Origin: Thermoplasmatota archaeon
GTDB taxonomy: Archaea; Thermoplasmatota; E2; DHVEG-1
Assembly: GCA_030601705.1 (NCBI GenBank)
Contig: JAUWBM010000004.1
Location: 1-62,378, forward strand
DNA length: 62,378 nucleotides
Reading direction: 5' to 3'
Below the pieces are notes generated by a model. That model saw nothing but the letters and a program-made list of their open reading frames with translations, did not search any database and was not told the DNA's origin. Of this stretch, positions 6,429 to 17,157 are shown one piece after another; positions within the stretch are counted from its first letter, which is position 1, and each line of letters opens with the position of its first letter. The translations under genes and the position numbers were made by a program.

Positions 6429-7778
6429 TCATCTCGTCAGTTTTTTGACAATGTTATCTACGATCTTATCTGATGCACCAAGATAATTTCTCGGGTTCAT
6501 TATTTCTTCTAATTCATTCTTTCTGAGTAATTTAGAAACGTTTTTATCTTCCAATAGTGTAGTTAGCAAATCCTTATCTTTATCAGATGCCTTAAGCGAA
6601 CATTTTCTGACAAGTTCATGTGCATCTCCACGACCCATCCCTTTTTCAACGAGTTTTATCATTACTGCTTCAGCCATGGGCAGACCTTTTGATTTTTCAA
6701 GATTATCCAGCATTTTCTCTGGATTAACTTGAAGATTTTTGAACACATTATTCATCTGATAGACAATCCAGTCTGTAAGTATCAAGGAATGAGGTAAAAT
6801 AAAACGTTCAGATGATGAATTACAAAGATCTCGTTCATGCCACTGAATTGCGTTTTCATAAGCAGGTATTACAAAGCTTCTTGTCACCCTAGCAAGTCCA
6901 CAGATCTGTTCACAAATGATAGGGTTTCTTTTATGTGGCATCGTTGAAGAGCCAACCTGTTTTTTGGATTCAAACGCCTCTGCAACTTCCCCAATTTCAC
7001 TTCTCTGAAGATTTCTAATCTCAGTTGCGAACTTTTCCATGCTAGCAGAAATATTTGATAGAGTTGACAAAAGCTCTATGTATCTATCCCTTCCAACAAT
7101 TTGTGTTGCCCCTTCTTCTATTCCTAATTTTAAATCTCGCATTACCAATTCTTGAATTTTTAAGATATGTTTACCCATGGCCGCACCAGTACCCACTGCA
7201 CCAGACATTTTGCCAACTAAGATGCGTGATTTGCCTTCATGCATGCGTTCTAGGTGTCTGTCAACTTCCATGGCATAAACAGCCATTTTCAAGCCAAAAG
7301 TAATTGGGATGGAAAATTGCCCATGTGTCCTGCCGTGCATGATTGTTTTCTTGTGTTCCTTTGCAAGGTTTACCAAATTTTTCCTAAGTTCTTTTAACTC
7401 TCTTTTAATGAAATCTGTTGATTCTGAAAATTGTAGGGCATTAGCTGTATCTACAATATCATAGCTCGTGGCACCGAGATGAACATATTTGCCTGCATCT
7501 CCACTGCAAACTTCACTAAGAGCTTTTGTTATCGCCATTATGTCATGTCTGGTTTCTTTTTCAATTTCTTTCACTCTTTCGACTTTAACAAACTTTACAG
7601 AAGCTTTTTTAGAAATTTCATCAGCAGCTTTTTTCGGGATGTTACCAACTTTAGCATGTGCTTTAGCTAGTGCAGCCTCCACATCTAACAAATATTGAAG
7701 TTTGCTTTTTTCACCGAAGACTTCTTTTATTTCTCTCCTTCCGTATCTAAAATCTATAGGGCAAACTGGATTATCCAT
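6429..7778 (-). CDS. purB: adenylosuccinate lyase
   Basis: GSSTMPHKRNPI fumarase/ASL signature; TRHDIMA; full length. Confidence 0.95.
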   Translation of the reverse strand: MDNPVCPIDFRYGRREIKEVFGEKSKLQYLLDVEAALAKAHAKVGNIPKKAADEISKKASVKFVKVERVKEIEKETRHDIMAITKALSEVCSGDAGKYVHLGATSYDIVDTANALQFSESTDFIKRELKELRKNLVNLAKEHKKTIMHGRTHGQFSIPITFGLKMAVYAMEVDRHLERMHEGKSRILVGKMSGAVGTGAAMGKHILKIQELVMRDLKLGIEEGATQIVGRDRYIELLSTLSNISASMEKFATEIRNLQRSEIGEVAEAFESKKQVGSSTMPHKRNPIICEQICGLARVTRSFVIPAYENAIQWHERDLCNSSSERFILPHSLILTDWIVYQMNNVFKNLQVNPEKMLDNLEKSKGLPMAEAVMIKLVEKGMGRGDAHELVRKCSLKASDKDKDLLTTLLEDKNVSKLLRKNELEEIMNPRNYLGASDKIVDNIVKKLTR

Positions 7779-11083: not shown

Positions 11084-12205
11084 ATGTTAAATGTTTATAC
11101 TTTGACTAATCTTTGTAAAGCTACTTCCAAAGGTATAAAAGCATTTTGTAGTATATTATTTCAGATGAAAAATAATGAAGATCTTGCCCCGGGTCTAGTG
11201 ATTTGGGAGATTACCCTGAAATGCAATCTAAGATGTCGACATTGCGGTTCATCTGCAGGAAACGCAAGACCTAATGAATTAACGACCAAAGAGGGTCTCA
11301 GATTATGTAACGACCTTGCGAGATTAGGTTTTAGGGGTGTAACTTTGTTTGGTGGTGAACCGTTTCTTCATAAGAATTGGGATATTTTAGGTAAAAAAAT
11401 TAAAGATTTGGGCATGAAACTCTCCATTGTGTCAAATGGATTTGTAAATGCAAGGAATGTACTTCCTAAGTTAGCAAGATTACATGTTGATTCTGTGCAG
11501 ATTGGTTTAGATGGAGCTTCTTCAAAAACACACGACTATATACGAGGAGTTAGCGGATCTTTTGAAAAAGCTATTGACTTTTTACGTCTATCAAAAAAAG
11601 CCGGTTTATCAACTGGAGCTATAACAACGATGAGTAAAATGAATTTTAAGGAACTGCCAGCGTTAAGGGATCTTATTATCAAGGAGGGAATTGATTGGCA
11701 AATCCAAGAAGGTGTTCCGATAGGTAGATTCCCAAAAGATAAGGTTTTATCTCAACAGGAATATTATTCTATGGGGCTTTTTATCGCTGCCACTCGGAAA
11801 AAATATTCTTTTAAAAAGATTTTGATAGGCGGATCTCATAACCTTGTTTTTCATTCACAATTTCTTCCAAATATGTCTGCTCCTATAGAATGGAAAGGTT
11901 GTTGGGCAGGAAAAAGAGTCCTAGGAGTACAAAGTGATGGCGGAGTGAAAGGTTGTCTTGCATTATCTGATGAATTCATTGAGGATAACATCAGGGACAG
12001 AAGTATTGTCGACATTTGGAATGATCCAAATTCCTTTTCGTACAATAGAAAATTTAAGAAAACTGATTTAGGGGAAAATTGTAGGGATTGCAAATATGCG
12101 GATACATGTAAAGGTGGCTGTTCGACCCGATCGAATGCATTGGCGGGTATATTCCATAACGATCCTTTCTGCTTTTATAGAATTGAACAAACATTATTTG
12201 ACTAA
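11084..12205 (+). CDS. radical SAM/SPASM peptide maturase 1
   Basis: CNLRCRHC, FGGEPFL, C-terminal SPASM CRDCKYADTCKGGC...C; adjacent to small precursor-like ORFs. Confidence 0.85.
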   Translation: MLNVYTLTNLCKATSKGIKAFCSILFQMKNNEDLAPGLVIWEITLKCNLRCRHCGSSAGNARPNELTTKEGLRLCNDLARLGFRGVTLFGGEPFLHKNWDILGKKIKDLGMKLSIVSNGFVNARNVLPKLARLHVDSVQIGLDGASSKTHDYIRGVSGSFEKAIDFLRLSKKAGLSTGAITTMSKMNFKELPALRDLIIKEGIDWQIQEGVPIGRFPKDKVLSQQEYYSMGLFIAATRKKYSFKKILIGGSHNLVFHSQFLPNMSAPIEWKGCWAGKRVLGVQSDGGVKGCLALSDEFIEDNIRDRSIVDIWNDPNSFSYNRKFKKTDLGENCRDCKYADTCKGGCSTRSNALAGIFHNDPFCFYRIEQTLFD

Positions 12206-12262: not shown

Positions 12263-12475
12263 ATGAAACATGCTAGCAATAATACCATGAATGAGCTGAT
12301 AAAAATAGGAAGCATGCTCGGAGTTGAAAAAGAGGATATCTACCAACTAAAAAAGAAAGCCTCGAATAAAGAAATGACGAACCTACAGATACTATTCCCG
12401 CACGATCCAACAGATTGCTACAAGGATCCTTGTGGCGGTTACTATGGTACCATAAGCATAAACGATTTTCAATAA
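12263..12475 (+). CDS. candidate modified-peptide precursor 1 (C-terminus GGYYGTISINDFQ)
   Basis: Small ORF between two rSAM/SPASM genes; leader IGSMLGVEKEDI and core YGTISINDF shared with four further ORFs. Confidence 0.75.
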   Translation: MKHASNNTMNELIKIGSMLGVEKEDIYQLKKKASNKEMTNLQILFPHDPTDCYKDPCGGYYGTISINDFQ

Positions 12476-12525
12476 ACCGTAGTCCTCTCCTTTAAATACC
12501 AAAGTATAGATCGGTAATAAGGAAA

Positions 12526-13563
12526 ATGAGCCTGAAAAACACCTATGCCCCAAGCCAGGTGGTCTGGGAACTTACCTTGCAGTGTAATCTAAAATGTATT
12601 CACTGTGGTTCATCCGCCGGAAAAGCCAGGCCTAACGAACTTTCTACTGCAGAAGCTCTTAACCTCTGCAAAGACCTGGCAGAAATCGACTCTAAAGAAG
12701 TCTGCTTCATGGGAGGTGAACCATTTCTTCGAAAAGAATGGTACAGACTCGGCAGAGAGGTTAGAGATTTAGGGATGAGACTCTTAGTTATCTCAAACGG
12801 CTTCATCGGAAATGAGGACATTATTTCTAAACTTGTTAAATTGCAGCCTTATGGTGTCTCAATAAGTCTCGATGGAGCAACAGCTCAGACTCATGATCAT
12901 ATCAGGGGAGTAGAGGGGTCTTTCAAAAAAGCAATGGAATTTATCTTTTTGTCTAGGAAAGCGGATCTACCAACAGCAGTTATCACAACGGTGAACAAGT
13001 TGAATTTTAAAGAGTTACCCATGATCAAAGAGTTATTGCTTGGGAAACATGTTGCTTGGCAAATTCAAACTGCTTCCCCCGAAGGAAGATTTCCAGAGAA
13101 ATTACTGTTATCGGAAGAAGAATTCTATTCTCTTGGCCTCTTTATTGCTTCTCTCCAGACAAAATATTCTACAAAAGAACTACCCGTCGTTGGTGCACAC
13201 TGTTGTGGGTACTATTCCAGATACATACCACATGTAGGATTATCTTCTGATTGGAGAGGATGCCAAGCAGGCATATCAATTTTAAGTGTTAAAAGCAATG
13301 GCGATGTAATAGGTTGCCTTGCAACATCAGATAAGTACATCGAAGGTAACATTCGAAACAGGAGTATTATTGAAATCTGGAATAATCCAAATTCTTTTGC
13401 ATATAACAGACATTTTAAAACAACTGATTTAGGAGATAACTGTATTGATTGCAGGTATGGAGAAAAATGTAAAGGTGGCTGTATGGGTATGTCAATCGCT
13501 TTAACCGGTAAACCTCACAATGACCCCTATTGTTACTATAAAATTGAACAAAAATTGTCTTAA
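12526..13563 (+). CDS. radical SAM/SPASM peptide maturase 2
   Basis: CNLKCIHC, MGGEPFL, SPASM CIDCRYGEKCKGGC...C; paralog of 11084..12205 throughout. Confidence 0.87.
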   Translation: MSLKNTYAPSQVVWELTLQCNLKCIHCGSSAGKARPNELSTAEALNLCKDLAEIDSKEVCFMGGEPFLRKEWYRLGREVRDLGMRLLVISNGFIGNEDIISKLVKLQPYGVSISLDGATAQTHDHIRGVEGSFKKAMEFIFLSRKADLPTAVITTVNKLNFKELPMIKELLLGKHVAWQIQTASPEGRFPEKLLLSEEEFYSLGLFIASLQTKYSTKELPVVGAHCCGYYSRYIPHVGLSSDWRGCQAGISILSVKSNGDVIGCLATSDKYIEGNIRNRSIIEIWNNPNSFAYNRHFKTTDLGDNCIDCRYGEKCKGGCMGMSIALTGKPHNDPYCYYKIEQKLS

Positions 13564-13626
13564 AATAAACAATTTATTGAAAGATAATCTTTTTATATAT
13601 ATTTAGACATTATAAACTGATAAAAT

Positions 13627-13806
13627 ATGATCCCAACAAAAATATTTGAAATTGGATCTATGCTTGGACTTAATGTTAAAGATATCAGGGATCTTGAGTC
13701 AAACTGGGACAAATCAGATATACCAAAGGCATCAATCGCCTTTCCATTAGATAATTATAAAGATGGCATATTCTATGGTACCATAAGTATAAACGATTTC
13801 AAATAA
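13627..13806 (+). CDS. candidate modified-peptide precursor 2 (59 aa; MIPTKIFEIGSMLGLNVKDIRDLESNWDKSDIPKASIAFPLDNYKDGIFYGTISINDFK)
   Basis: Translated by hand (below the ORF-track length cutoff); leader and core shared with neighbouring precursors. Confidence 0.75.
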   Translation: MIPTKIFEIGSMLGLNVKDIRDLESNWDKSDIPKASIAFPLDNYKDGIFYGTISINDFK

Positions 13807-13824
13807 CTAAAGAGGCATGAAGGG

Positions 13825-14034
13825 ATGGTTTCAGATAAACTATACGAGATAGGGGGGGACCTTGGCTTAAACAAAAAAGATATTGATGATGTTTTGTCAA
13901 CTAGACCAGTCAATAAAGACAATGTTGAATCTATCTCTCCAGTAGAAGTATACAAAGCGATTGGTAGATATGGCACTGTAAGCATAAACGATTTCCAAGA
14001 GGCAAGGAGACATCACGTATATGTTTCCAAATAA
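13825..14034 (+). CDS. candidate modified-peptide precursor 3 (core RYGTVSINDF, extension QEARRHHVYVSK)
   Basis: Leader KLYEIGGDLGLNKKDIDDVLS and core YGTVSINDF. Confidence 0.75.
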   Translation: MVSDKLYEIGGDLGLNKKDIDDVLSTRPVNKDNVESISPVEVYKAIGRYGTVSINDFQEARRHHVYVSK

Positions 14035-14230
14035 ACTTTATGAGATAGGTCAGAATCTCGGTTTAAACAAAAAAGATGTCGAAAGCGTTTTGTCTACTAC
14101 GCCAGCCAATGAACGTGATATCAAATCTATCCCTCCCACGGAAATCTATAAGGAATTCGGTAAATATGGCACCGTTAGCATACATGATTTCTCAAGAGCA
14201 AAAGGATACCGTGAATATGATTCCAAATAA
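14021..14230 (+). CDS. candidate modified-peptide precursor 4 (core KYGTVSIHDF, extension SRAKGYREYDSK)
   Basis: Leader KLYEIGQNLGLNKKDVESVLS and core; overlaps precursor 3 by 14 nt. Confidence 0.75.
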   Translation: MFPNKLYEIGQNLGLNKKDVESVLSTTPANERDIKSIPPTEIYKEFGKYGTVSIHDFSRAKGYREYDSK

Positions 14231-14390
14231 ACTTTATGAATTAGGTCAGTGTCTCGGCTTAGATAAAAGAGATATTGACAATGTTTATTCCTCCTTGGCA
14301 ACAAAGAAAGGCGATGCTAGCTTTACCTCACCGTTAGAAGTATATAAAGATTCATGCCATTACGGTACCATAAGCATAAAAGATTTCTAA
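14217..14390 (+). CDS. candidate modified-peptide precursor 5 (core HYGTISIKDF)
   Basis: Internal ATG of the 14076..14390 ORF; MIPNKLYELGQCLGLDKRDI leader aligns with precursors 2-4; overlaps precursor 4 by 14 nt. Confidence 0.75.
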   Translation: MIPNKLYELGQCLGLDKRDIDNVYSSLATKKGDASFTSPLEVYKDSCHYGTISIKDF

Positions 14391-14455: not shown

Positions 14456-15775
14456 ATGAAACTTAATTTAGGCTGCGGAGGCGTTTATAAAAAAGAGTAT
14501 CTAAACATCGATGCCTTTGATAGTACCGTCGCAGATAAAATAATGTCAGCTGTTGACCTTGACCTAAAAGACAACAGTGTCGAAGAAATCATTGCTTCTC
14601 AACTCATTGAGCATCTAGGTCTTATGAGTAGCATATACACATTAAGTGAATGCTATAGAGTTTTAGAGTCAAAAGGAACACTTATCATTGAAACTCCAGA
14701 TATTAAAACCTCGTTTAAAAAATATATAACCGGTGGTCGTGAAGATAGAAAAAACATATTACCATGGATTTATGGATTAGAGAATCCAGGTTTGCAACAC
14801 AAATTTTGCTTTCCGGACGATCTCCTTGGAGAAATCTGTAAAAACATTGGTTTTACCAATATCAAAACAGAACATATTGAACCCGATGAATATCAACCAA
14901 TCTTAAAGATGACCTGCAACAAACCAATTGACCATCAATATCCACAATTCATTACTTTTCTCAGGAAACAATTACTTCGAAAAAAAGCAGTAGATTTACA
15001 CAACCAAATACTAGGATTAGAACAAGAAAGACTAATTGATTTTTTCTCATCGAAAATGAACCAACTCGATGAAAAGGTGAACAATGTCATACTAAATGAA
15101 ATAACAATAGAAGGAGCAGTTTCCAGCCCAGAAATAACAAATATTTTTCTCGAATCCCTCCTCAAAAAAAGAGTAGTCCCTCAGAAGAGAATCGATAAAC
15201 ATCTCAAAACAATAAAGTCACTAATCAAATTAGATTTTCTCGATATCCTCTGTTACAGCATGAGAGAAATACCCGACTTGGTCGGAGAACAAAAAAGAGT
15301 ATTTCATACAATAACTGATCTAGGAAAAAGCACGGTAAAAAACCTGTTAGACGACACAAAAAAATCCACTGTTATCAAGTCCCTTTCAAAAACAAAAAAG
15401 AAATGTAGAACCTATGATACAATTGATTTTTTCTCAGAAAAAATGCTACTCAAAAAAGCAAATCGGCTCTTCCAACGTGGATCAAAGGAATTTGTTTTAC
15501 AAAGATACGACGAAGCCATTAACAACTTCAAAATTTCAATTGGTTTTTATCGAGACCAAATTCTCACCTATTGGAACCTTGGAAGACTCTACACCTTAAC
15601 CAATAATAGAAAACAATCAAAAAAGTATTACAAGAAAACCCTTGATCTCCTCAAACTACTCGACTATAACAACAAAGAAATTATCAAAAATAAAATTGAA
15701 GAAGAAGTAAGCAAACTAACTAGAGAAACACCCAAAAATCCAATCACTTCGTTGGAAAATATTGTTGATGGCTAG
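14456..15775 (+). CDS. SAM-dependent methyltransferase with C-terminal TPR-like region; candidate tailoring enzyme
   Basis: KLNLGCGGVYKKEYLNIDA; CYRVLESKGTLIIETPD; C-terminal tandem helices ANRLFQRGSKEFVLQRYDEAINNFKISI. Confidence 0.75.
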   Translation: MKLNLGCGGVYKKEYLNIDAFDSTVADKIMSAVDLDLKDNSVEEIIASQLIEHLGLMSSIYTLSECYRVLESKGTLIIETPDIKTSFKKYITGGREDRKNILPWIYGLENPGLQHKFCFPDDLLGEICKNIGFTNIKTEHIEPDEYQPILKMTCNKPIDHQYPQFITFLRKQLLRKKAVDLHNQILGLEQERLIDFFSSKMNQLDEKVNNVILNEITIEGAVSSPEITNIFLESLLKKRVVPQKRIDKHLKTIKSLIKLDFLDILCYSMREIPDLVGEQKRVFHTITDLGKSTVKNLLDDTKKSTVIKSLSKTKKKCRTYDTIDFFSEKMLLKKANRLFQRGSKEFVLQRYDEAINNFKISIGFYRDQILTYWNLGRLYTLTNNRKQSKKYYKKTLDLLKLLDYNNKEIIKNKIEEEVSKLTRETPKNPITSLENIVDG

Positions 15776-17157
15776 ATATACGTTTTCTTTTTTATCTTGC
15801 TCCGATCAACCTTAGAGATGATACCCGCGGTGTGTGGTTTGATTTTATCCACTTCTTTTACATTTACCTCTATATCTGATCCAAATCTTTCTTGAAAACG
15901 GTGTTGTATTTCAGAAAATAACTTGTCAACTGGAAGATCGGTGTTTCTCAACTCGCTATCAAGTACTGCAAATATCTCTATCTTATTGATCCTGGGCTGA
16001 ATTATTTGAAACCGCTCAATACAATCGATATTAAACGAGCAACTAAGCTCGCCAATAAATTCATCAAGAGTGGAAGGAAGAACTATTGTTCCATTTGGTA
16101 AAACGATCGAATGACTTTCTCTCCCATAAATCTTAGAGATAAGTCCACCCGCTAGCCCACAAGTACACTTATCATCAGCAGGCGTTACGATATCATCAAG
16201 CCCCATATATCGAATTATAGGAGTTCCTCTTCCATAGAGTCTTGTCACCACTACATGACCGGGTTCACCAGGAGAAACAGGTTCACCAGTATCATCTATA
16301 AATTCTAGATATACAAAATCGGAATGGACATGATATTTTCCCTGCTTACATTGAAAGGCCATAGGGCCTGATTCCATGGCACCATATGTATCAAACACCT
16401 GCGTCTCAAACGAATTTTCAATATAATTTTTTAAATACTTATCTAATACAGACCCGGTTGATAATATACATCTCGGCTGTATATCTTTTCCAAATCCCCC
16501 TCTTTTAAGAAGGGCTAGTTGTCTTAGCATCCCGGGATAGCCGCCAATAAACTCAGGTTGAAAGCTAGTGATTTTCTTCATGATCTTTTTTGGATCATCA
16601 TACGTGTGAAAAATCTGTATATTGTCAAGAGAAAAAAATGGCTTTAATTTTGGAATCACCCCATCAGTGAGGTATTCCCTCTCGGCGCTATGTTCAGAAA
16701 GATCTGCAATAACCGTCATTCTGGTTTTTCTCCAGTCGACATTATGTTCTTTTATCACCCGTACATATCCTAACACTCCACGAACAATTGCAAACATGTC
16801 AATATAAATCGAGACTGATTTCCCTGTTGTACCAGAAGTATAACTCCTAATGATTTTTGTTTTGTCTGTAGTAGATGAAATAACTCTATCTGGAAAGTTT
16901 TTTCTTATATCGTCCTTACTTATAAATGGAAGTTTACCAATATCTTCAATACCTTTTATATCATCTGGATGGATACCTGCTGCCGTATATTTTTCATGAT
17001 AAACTGGAACAGTATATGCATATTTTACTAGCTTCCGAAGTTGTTTATCTTGAAATTTTTTCAAATTGTCGGCATTCATCCTCCGCAGTCTGTTCACATC
17101 AACCAAGTAACATTTTAAAACTCGAAAAATGAAAAAGGGATTGAGAAATGGATTCAT
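15772..17157 (-). CDS. CapK/PaaK-like adenylate-forming enzyme
   Basis: SYTSGTTGKSVSIY AMP-binding P-loop; DTYGAMESGPMAFQC; TRLYGRGTPIIRYMGLDD. Confidence 0.85.
   Translation of the reverse strand: MNPFLNPFFIFRVLKCYLVDVNRLRRMNADNLKKFQDKQLRKLVKYAYTVPVYHEKYTAAGIHPDDIKGIEDIGKLPFISKDDIRKNFPDRVISSTTDKTKIIRSYTSGTTGKSVSIYIDMFAIVRGVLGYVRVIKEHNVDWRKTRMTVIADLSEHSAEREYLTDGVIPKLKPFFSLDNIQIFHTYDDPKKIMKKITSFQPEFIGGYPGMLRQLALLKRGGFGKDIQPRCILSTGSVLDKYLKNYIENSFETQVFDTYGAMESGPMAFQCKQGKYHVHSDFVYLEFIDDTGEPVSPGEPGHVVVTRLYGRGTPIIRYMGLDDIVTPADDKCTCGLAGGLISKIYGRESHSIVLPNGTIVLPSTLDEFIGELSCSFNIDCIERFQIIQPRINKIEIFAVLDSELRNTDLPVDKLFSEIQHRFQERFGSDIEVNVKEVDKIKPHTAGIISKVDRSKIKKKTYI

Follow-up and report, generated by a model that had tools for sequence, protein, structure and literature searches.

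A radical SAM/SPASM gene cluster with short XYG-bearing precursors in a Thermoplasmatota archaeon: a candidate system for tyramine splicing

The window analysed here, i.e. the whole 62,378-nt stretch of contig JAUWBM010000004.1, contains a gene cluster composed, in this order, of rSAM2 (a radical SAM/SPASM enzyme), precursor peptide 1, rSAM1 (a second enzyme of this type), precursor peptides 2–5, a methyltransferase-TPR protein and a convergently oriented PaaK-like ligase, separated by 57, 50, 63, 18, −14, −14, 65 and −4 nt, respectively. All of these genes lie on the forward strand, with the exception of that of the ligase. rSAM2 (11084..12205, 373 aa, group A2) was recognized by its Pfam Radical_SAM and SPASM matches, and rSAM1 (12526..13563, 345 aa, group A1), the proposed modifier of the XYG site, by Pfam matches, its position in the enzyme tree, shared residues and a structural model. 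The precursors are (i) peptide 1 (12263..12475, 70 aa, core YYGTISINDF at 12440–12469), detected by a precursor HMM with E values in the 1e-20 range, (ii) peptide 2 (13627..13806, 59 aa, core FYGTISINDF at 13771–13800), (iii) peptide 3 (13825..14034, 69 aa, core RYGTVSINDF at 13966–13995), whose tail overlaps gene 4, (iv) peptide 4 (14021..14230, 69 aa, core KYGTVSIHDF at 14162–14191), whose tail overlaps gene 5, and (v) peptide 5 (14217..14390, 57 aa, core HYGTISIKDF at 14358–14387), which has a terminal F. The 439-aa methyltransferase-TPR protein (14456..15775), a conserved cluster member, has a class I methyltransferase domain (Methyltransf_11, E 2.6e-4) and weak matches to TPR repeats. The 461-aa AMP-forming ligase (15772..17157, reverse strand), identified by Pfam (AMP-binding) and the PaaK structures 4r1l and 2y4o, is a probable member of the cluster, as indicated by synteny.

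A TATA-like element (TTTTATATATAT, 13591..13602, forward strand), a putative archaeal promoter, is placed approximately 25 nt 5′ of the ATG at 13627, upstream of the run of precursors 2–5, and a nearly identical sequence is present in the nearest named relative, CP070798 ('Thermoplasmatales archaeon isolate bin14'), whose rSAM1 is 87% identical. This arrangement suggests that precursors 2–5 may be transcribed separately. The TATA-like promoter region ahead of precursor 2 (window 13591–13626) is conserved at positions 7070–7105 of locus L056. Scans of the DNA for sigma-70 promoters and terminators gave matches at chance level. No protease or transporter gene lies next to the cluster, and a gene for either leader removal or export is absent from the adjacent positions.

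The five forward-strand ORFs encode YYGTISINDFQ, FYGTISINDFK, RYGTVSINDFQ, KYGTVSIHDFS and HYGTISIKDF-stop. An earlier note on this DNA had described five peptides with a common YGT[IV]SI[NHK]DF core, which was borne out by the ORFs and by a genome-wide search: the back-translated core pattern gave exactly these five matches in the 2.84-Mb host genome, and the same pattern reversed, used as a control, gave none. Similarly, YGT[IV]SI.DF was found only in these peptides in the six-frame translation of the window (104,209 residues). The note had also placed the ends of peptides 1 and 2 at DF; each is in fact one residue longer (Q and K, respectively), and only peptide 5 stops at F. Peptides 3 and 4, to which removable followers had been ascribed, terminate 14 nt inside the following gene, with AAGGAG or AAAAGGA among their final codons, ahead of the next ATG. 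The follower hypothesis was rejected, since these tails encode the ribosome-binding site and start of the next gene and are most probably by-products of gene overlap; the fused and tandem precursors of relatives speak against it as well.

A single leader-core-leader-core ORF of CP070798, like that of L088, combines the counterparts of peptides 3/4 and 5; ORFs of this type were identified in both L036 and L088. The fused precursors include L056:7285–7662 and L088:6429–6812, and one core of the CP070798 fused copy has YST in place of YGT. A precursor of locus L046 carries three consecutive cores, YKAGTEYGTVSTKDV-YKAGTYYGTVSSKDL-YKAGTYYGTISVKDF. The tandem cores of this locus (three in L046:2905–3189, two in L046:5802–6062) follow the pattern YKAGTxYGT[VI]Sx[KA/IN]D/N[LFV]. 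Because relatives carry such internal cores, DF need not be the C-terminus, and a free C-terminus is not required.

Comparison of the window with CP070798 revealed 6 synonymous and no nonsynonymous differences in two orthologous cores (20 codons), versus 4 synonymous and 17 nonsynonymous differences in the leaders of the same two peptides (59 codons). Since the core changes are all synonymous and those of the leaders mostly nonsynonymous, the core is under selection and not just recently copied. The analysis was extended to precursors gathered beside homologous enzymes in approximately 20 archaeal genomes, the tallies being taken from a hand-curated core list. Among the 40 cores of group A (soluble, window-like precursors), Y and S are invariant, and G (39), T (36), I (33), D (33) and F (30) follow; nine different residues occur at the position preceding Y, and L, V or I occupies position 9 of 10 cores. 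In group B (n = 9), in which one hydrophobic segment precedes the core, Y, S, D and F are present in all cores, YG in a single one, and the residue at +2 from Tyr is Gly in five. Group C (n = 17), whose membrane precursors are longer and were drawn from four additional families of the phylum, has the pattern X-Y-G-[VA]-[YFH], with YG in 17/17 and SIxDF in none. By reading of the sequences, a leader resembling E[IL]Gxx[LF]GLxxxDI is common to all three groups. The strict conservation of YGT..DF proposed previously therefore holds in part: Y, G and S are near-fixed in the soluble precursors, T, D and F drift moderately (n = 40), and in the membrane-anchored relatives G is variable as well.

The group B precursors lie beside rSAM genes (loci L049, L050, L051, L052, L053, L087 and L090) and have a Y..S[IV]xDF core that is preceded by a hydrophobic segment and followed by a short tail, likewise hydrophobic; basic residues ahead of the hydrophobic segment would place the N-terminus inside and the core outside. 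The group C loci (L091–L095) contain runs of several membrane precursors each, all ending in xYG[VA][YFH], and in most of these precursors a loop holds another conserved motif, resembling YP[FY]A.

The best NCBIfam matches of the two window enzymes were to TIGR03913 (216 and 233 bits, cut-off 592), followed by TIGR04103 (193 and 204 bits, cut-off 725). Judging from these scores, the enzymes are related to both families without being members of either. Distant matches to the DynA and WgkB models were also obtained. The CxxxCxxC motif and the SPASM cysteines are conserved throughout the A1, A2, B and C enzymes. In a maximum-likelihood tree the archaeal enzymes formed a sister group to those of TIGR04103, TIGR03913, Agathobacter and Tropicibacter (support 96/89 for the joint archaeal-bacterial clade and 91/86 for the bacterial side alone), with MftC, TIGR04133, TIGR04053 and other SPASM proteins outside the joint clade; few cross-linking SPASM families were sampled in this tree. 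The archaeal A1, B and C enzymes have Q179, Q181, G228, Y229, W243 and Y335 in common with TIGR04103 and the GDL enzymes, and W72 is a further residue shared with the TIGR04103/TIGR03913 clade. Q179xQ181, G228-Y229, W72, W243 and Y335 are rare in other SPASM proteins, as judged from a small outgroup (n = 10). In 10 of the 11 A2 enzymes (the rSAM2 group) the equivalent of Tyr229 is Phe. The idea that rSAM1 and rSAM2 divide the work because they descend from group B and group C enzymes was rejected, as A1 and A2 branch together within the archaeal clade.

The AlphaFold model of rSAM1 (mean pLDDT 67.5, below 50 in the SPASM part) is suited to assignment of the predicted fold and not to active-site geometry. 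The predicted fold is nearest to SkfB, BlsE, SuiB and PqqE; a sequence search of the PDB matched SkfB, PqqE and BlsE, and no splicease. No relatives were found among viral contigs. Two enzymes of SIG29, a MAG assigned to Cyanobacteria (L059:6004–7116 and L098:1480–2499), grouped with the archaeal clade, and no XYG precursor was seen beside them.

IPR026482, the PlpX family, is presumably the same as TIGR04103. PlpX has been assigned to IPR026482 (PMC11002830); it excises tyramine at an XYG site (PMC10533398; PMC10373908), of which X may differ (PMC10533398). The TIGR04103 loci contain nif11 precursors with repeated XYG (QPLYGVVVSEEF-stop, QAMYGVVISDNL-stop, and one with five QPKYGLPMPI repeats), as well as a PlpY-like gene behind the rSAM gene, which was present at every cyanobacterial locus checked. 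KPYGVAISDAIVSGDL is among the further XYG-bearing precursors of the bacterial sister clade. The TIGR03913 loci, whose members were taken from plasmid records, encode DUF1843 peptides with a Y-x10-GDL motif; the residue next to its Tyr is usually Gly and sometimes Ala or Met. In the GDL-type clusters L133, L135 and L137 the Y-[GAM] of these peptides is close to the N-terminus, and in both Azospirillum and Aureibacter two or three DUF1843 peptide copies precede the rSAM gene. An Agathobacter rectalis plasmid carries a small unannotated ORF (L132:3701–3907) ending in GPVMYGTGVRM, followed by rSAM and MFS transporter genes, and is possibly a gut XYG RiPP cluster. On a Tropicibacter plasmid (L136:3692–5314) a related rSAM gene lies beside a second rSAM gene and genes for a trypsin-like protease and an M23 peptidase.

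The archaeal system resembles the spliceotide systems (PlpX/PlpY of the Pleurocapsa plp cluster; TIGR04103, nif11-class peptide radical SAM maturase 3) in its rSAM/SPASM enzyme, its XYG core with variable X, the presence of several cores per precursor in some members, and the residues QxQ, GY, W243 and Y335. It differs in its shorter enzyme (345 versus approximately 420 aa), its two paralogous rSAMs, the added methyltransferase-TPR protein and ligase, and the archaeal host. Unlike in PlpX systems, no nif11/NHLP leader was matched by Pfam or NCBIfam in the five window precursors, and PlpY was absent from the archaeal loci in both single-sequence and profile searches. With the GDL-motif/DUF1843 systems it shares the placement of several small precursors ahead of one rSAM/SPASM gene and a Tyr mostly followed by Gly (with natural YA and YM variants); however, the GDL enzyme is longer, and the Tyr motif of its peptides lies near the N-terminus before the DUF1843 helical part, whereas the archaeal motif is C-terminal. 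The window precursors gave no match to DUF1843, in contrast to the bacterial GDL precursors. SkfB, SuiB and PqqE, the nearest solved RiPP SPASM folds, have low sequence identity to the window enzyme and act on other cores (Cys thioether, Lys-Trp and Glu-Tyr chemistry, respectively). Cys, the hallmark residue of sactipeptide and ranthipeptide cores, was found in none of the 40 group A and 9 group B core 10-mers, and the mycofactocin (MftC) type is not matched, given the internal tandem cores and the position of MftC outside the enzyme clade.

The methyltransferase-TPR gene recurs at 13 loci. Within the family it was detected in 11/11 genomes with A-type enzymes and 0/34 others (Fisher p ~1e-10, relatedness among genomes being ignored). 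A survey of 389 genomes from the phylum located it in 17; these are the 12 A and the 5 C genomes and no others, i.e. those with XYG-type precursors, and in two of the C genomes it resides on a separate contig. It was found in none of the seven remaining phylum genomes that encode a close enzyme (in six all precursors are of the B type, and in one no precursor was found), nor in the genomes of the group B loci L049–L053, L087 and L090. The PaaK-like ligase adjoins the cluster at 11 group A loci; it belongs to a large family with paralogues, and the host genome has four copies.

Taken together, the cluster is probably of the RiPP type, and excision of tyramine at XYG by rSAM1 is the best-supported chemistry, which we favour with restraint. 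It is preferred because the minimal motif that groups A and C share with the bacterial sister families is X-Y-G with a free X. Splicing is supported by the frequency of YG in A (39/40) and C (17/17) and the variable residue before Y, and by analogy with spliceotides, which likewise have tandem and repeated cores. Counting against it are the absence of PlpY, the scores far under the family cut-offs, and group B, which retains Y, with YG in 1/9. The sister clade, including the GDL family, is only partly characterised. PlpY gave no match at the GDL loci either, and is therefore not universal in the joint clade. The lead of the earlier note, the likeness to the PlpX-type XYG site, was the best of the options it offered and gained independent support on four counts: the enzyme phylogeny, the residues held in common, the precursors found in bacterial relatives, and remote archaeal homologues having only XYG.

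The main rival, an rSAM cross-link at Tyr with a C–C or C–O bond from the ring to a nearby side chain (e.g. a three-residue cyclophane involving Thr, Val, Ser or Ala at +2, or a bond between Tyr and either conserved residue, Ser or Asp), would fit the invariance of Y in all groups and of S in A and B, as well as the +2 residue, which has a beta-carbon in every A and C core; many SPASM RiPP enzymes catalyse such bonds, and DynA and WgkB were among the distant model matches. We nevertheless regard it as unlikely: cyclophane formation makes no demand for the +1 G fixed in A and C, +2 is Gly in most group B cores, and the enzymes group with XYG-associated families and not with the few cross-linking families sampled. 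Another Tyr/Gly-directed rSAM reaction (e.g. epimerisation, C-alpha/beta oxidation or backbone cleavage at YG), of a type so far undescribed in this clade, is in our estimation doubtful too. The archaeal and GDL branches do lie outside the characterised TIGR04103 clade, PlpY is absent and group B dispenses with G; nonetheless, given residues shared with TIGR04103 around the same motif, the same reaction is the simpler guess.

Chemistry on DF at the C-terminus, either MftC-like oxidative decarboxylation or ligase-driven activation as the main step, is very improbable. D and F are indeed kept in the majority of A cores and in every B core, peptide 5 terminates in DF, and the ligase might be capable of activating a carboxylate at the C-terminus. 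However, DF is often internal (the three tandem cores of L046, the fused ORFs of L036 and L088), group C lacks it, the F position is occupied by L, V or I in a quarter of the A cores, and MftC falls outside the enzyme clade. The internal cores of L046 in particular make oxidative decarboxylation, listed as an alternative in the earlier note, unlikely as the general chemistry. That the peptides are small regulatory or structural proteins lying beside rSAM genes by chance would agree with the lack of adjacent protease and transporter genes, yet this is hardly credible, as the precursor-enzyme pairing is repeated in approximately 20 genomes, selection is stronger on the core than on the leader, and the methyltransferase co-occurs.

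If rSAM1 splices at XYG, leader binding by the rSAM enzymes would need no PlpY-like partner, and S-I-x-D-F following XYG would position the substrate. rSAM2, the paralogue in which Tyr229 is replaced by Phe, may be a partner or a second modifier, and the methyltransferase, perhaps with the ligase, would tailor the product. The latter would be a ketoamide peptide, bearing a group of the protease-inhibiting kind in the bacterial cases; protease inhibition has been reported for spliceotide products (cited in PMC11117315; PMC10373908). By analogy, a defensive or regulatory role of the product is possible. In aminopyruvatides the RiPP methyltransferase ApyS methylates an alpha-keto acid unit at its beta-carbon (PMC11117315). 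These peptides (apy; ApyHI, ApyS) are a precedent for a methylated alpha-keto unit, although there the keto group is formed by an MNIO on C-terminal Asp. A more far-reaching reading, advanced very tentatively, would combine PlpY-free archaeal backbone editing, tailoring of the alpha-keto-beta-amino unit by the methyltransferase-TPR protein and ligase, and related archaeal lines that use Tyr without a following Gly in membrane-anchored precursors and may display the product at the cell surface.

In the literature consulted, tyramine splicing is presented as a trait of bacteria (PMC10373908), and the archaeal rSAM RiPPs listed are ranthipeptides and sactipeptides (PMC12144867). The group B precursors constitute a natural test of the Gly requirement, and the tandem-core precursors of L046 would be useful for a multi-site mass test. 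If the proposal is true, tyramine splicing would extend to another domain of life, in an archaeal system with short cores and no PlpY; such a system would offer a compact enzyme to place ketoamides in proteins, and would bring to light a methyltransferase whose substrate may be the spliced unit.
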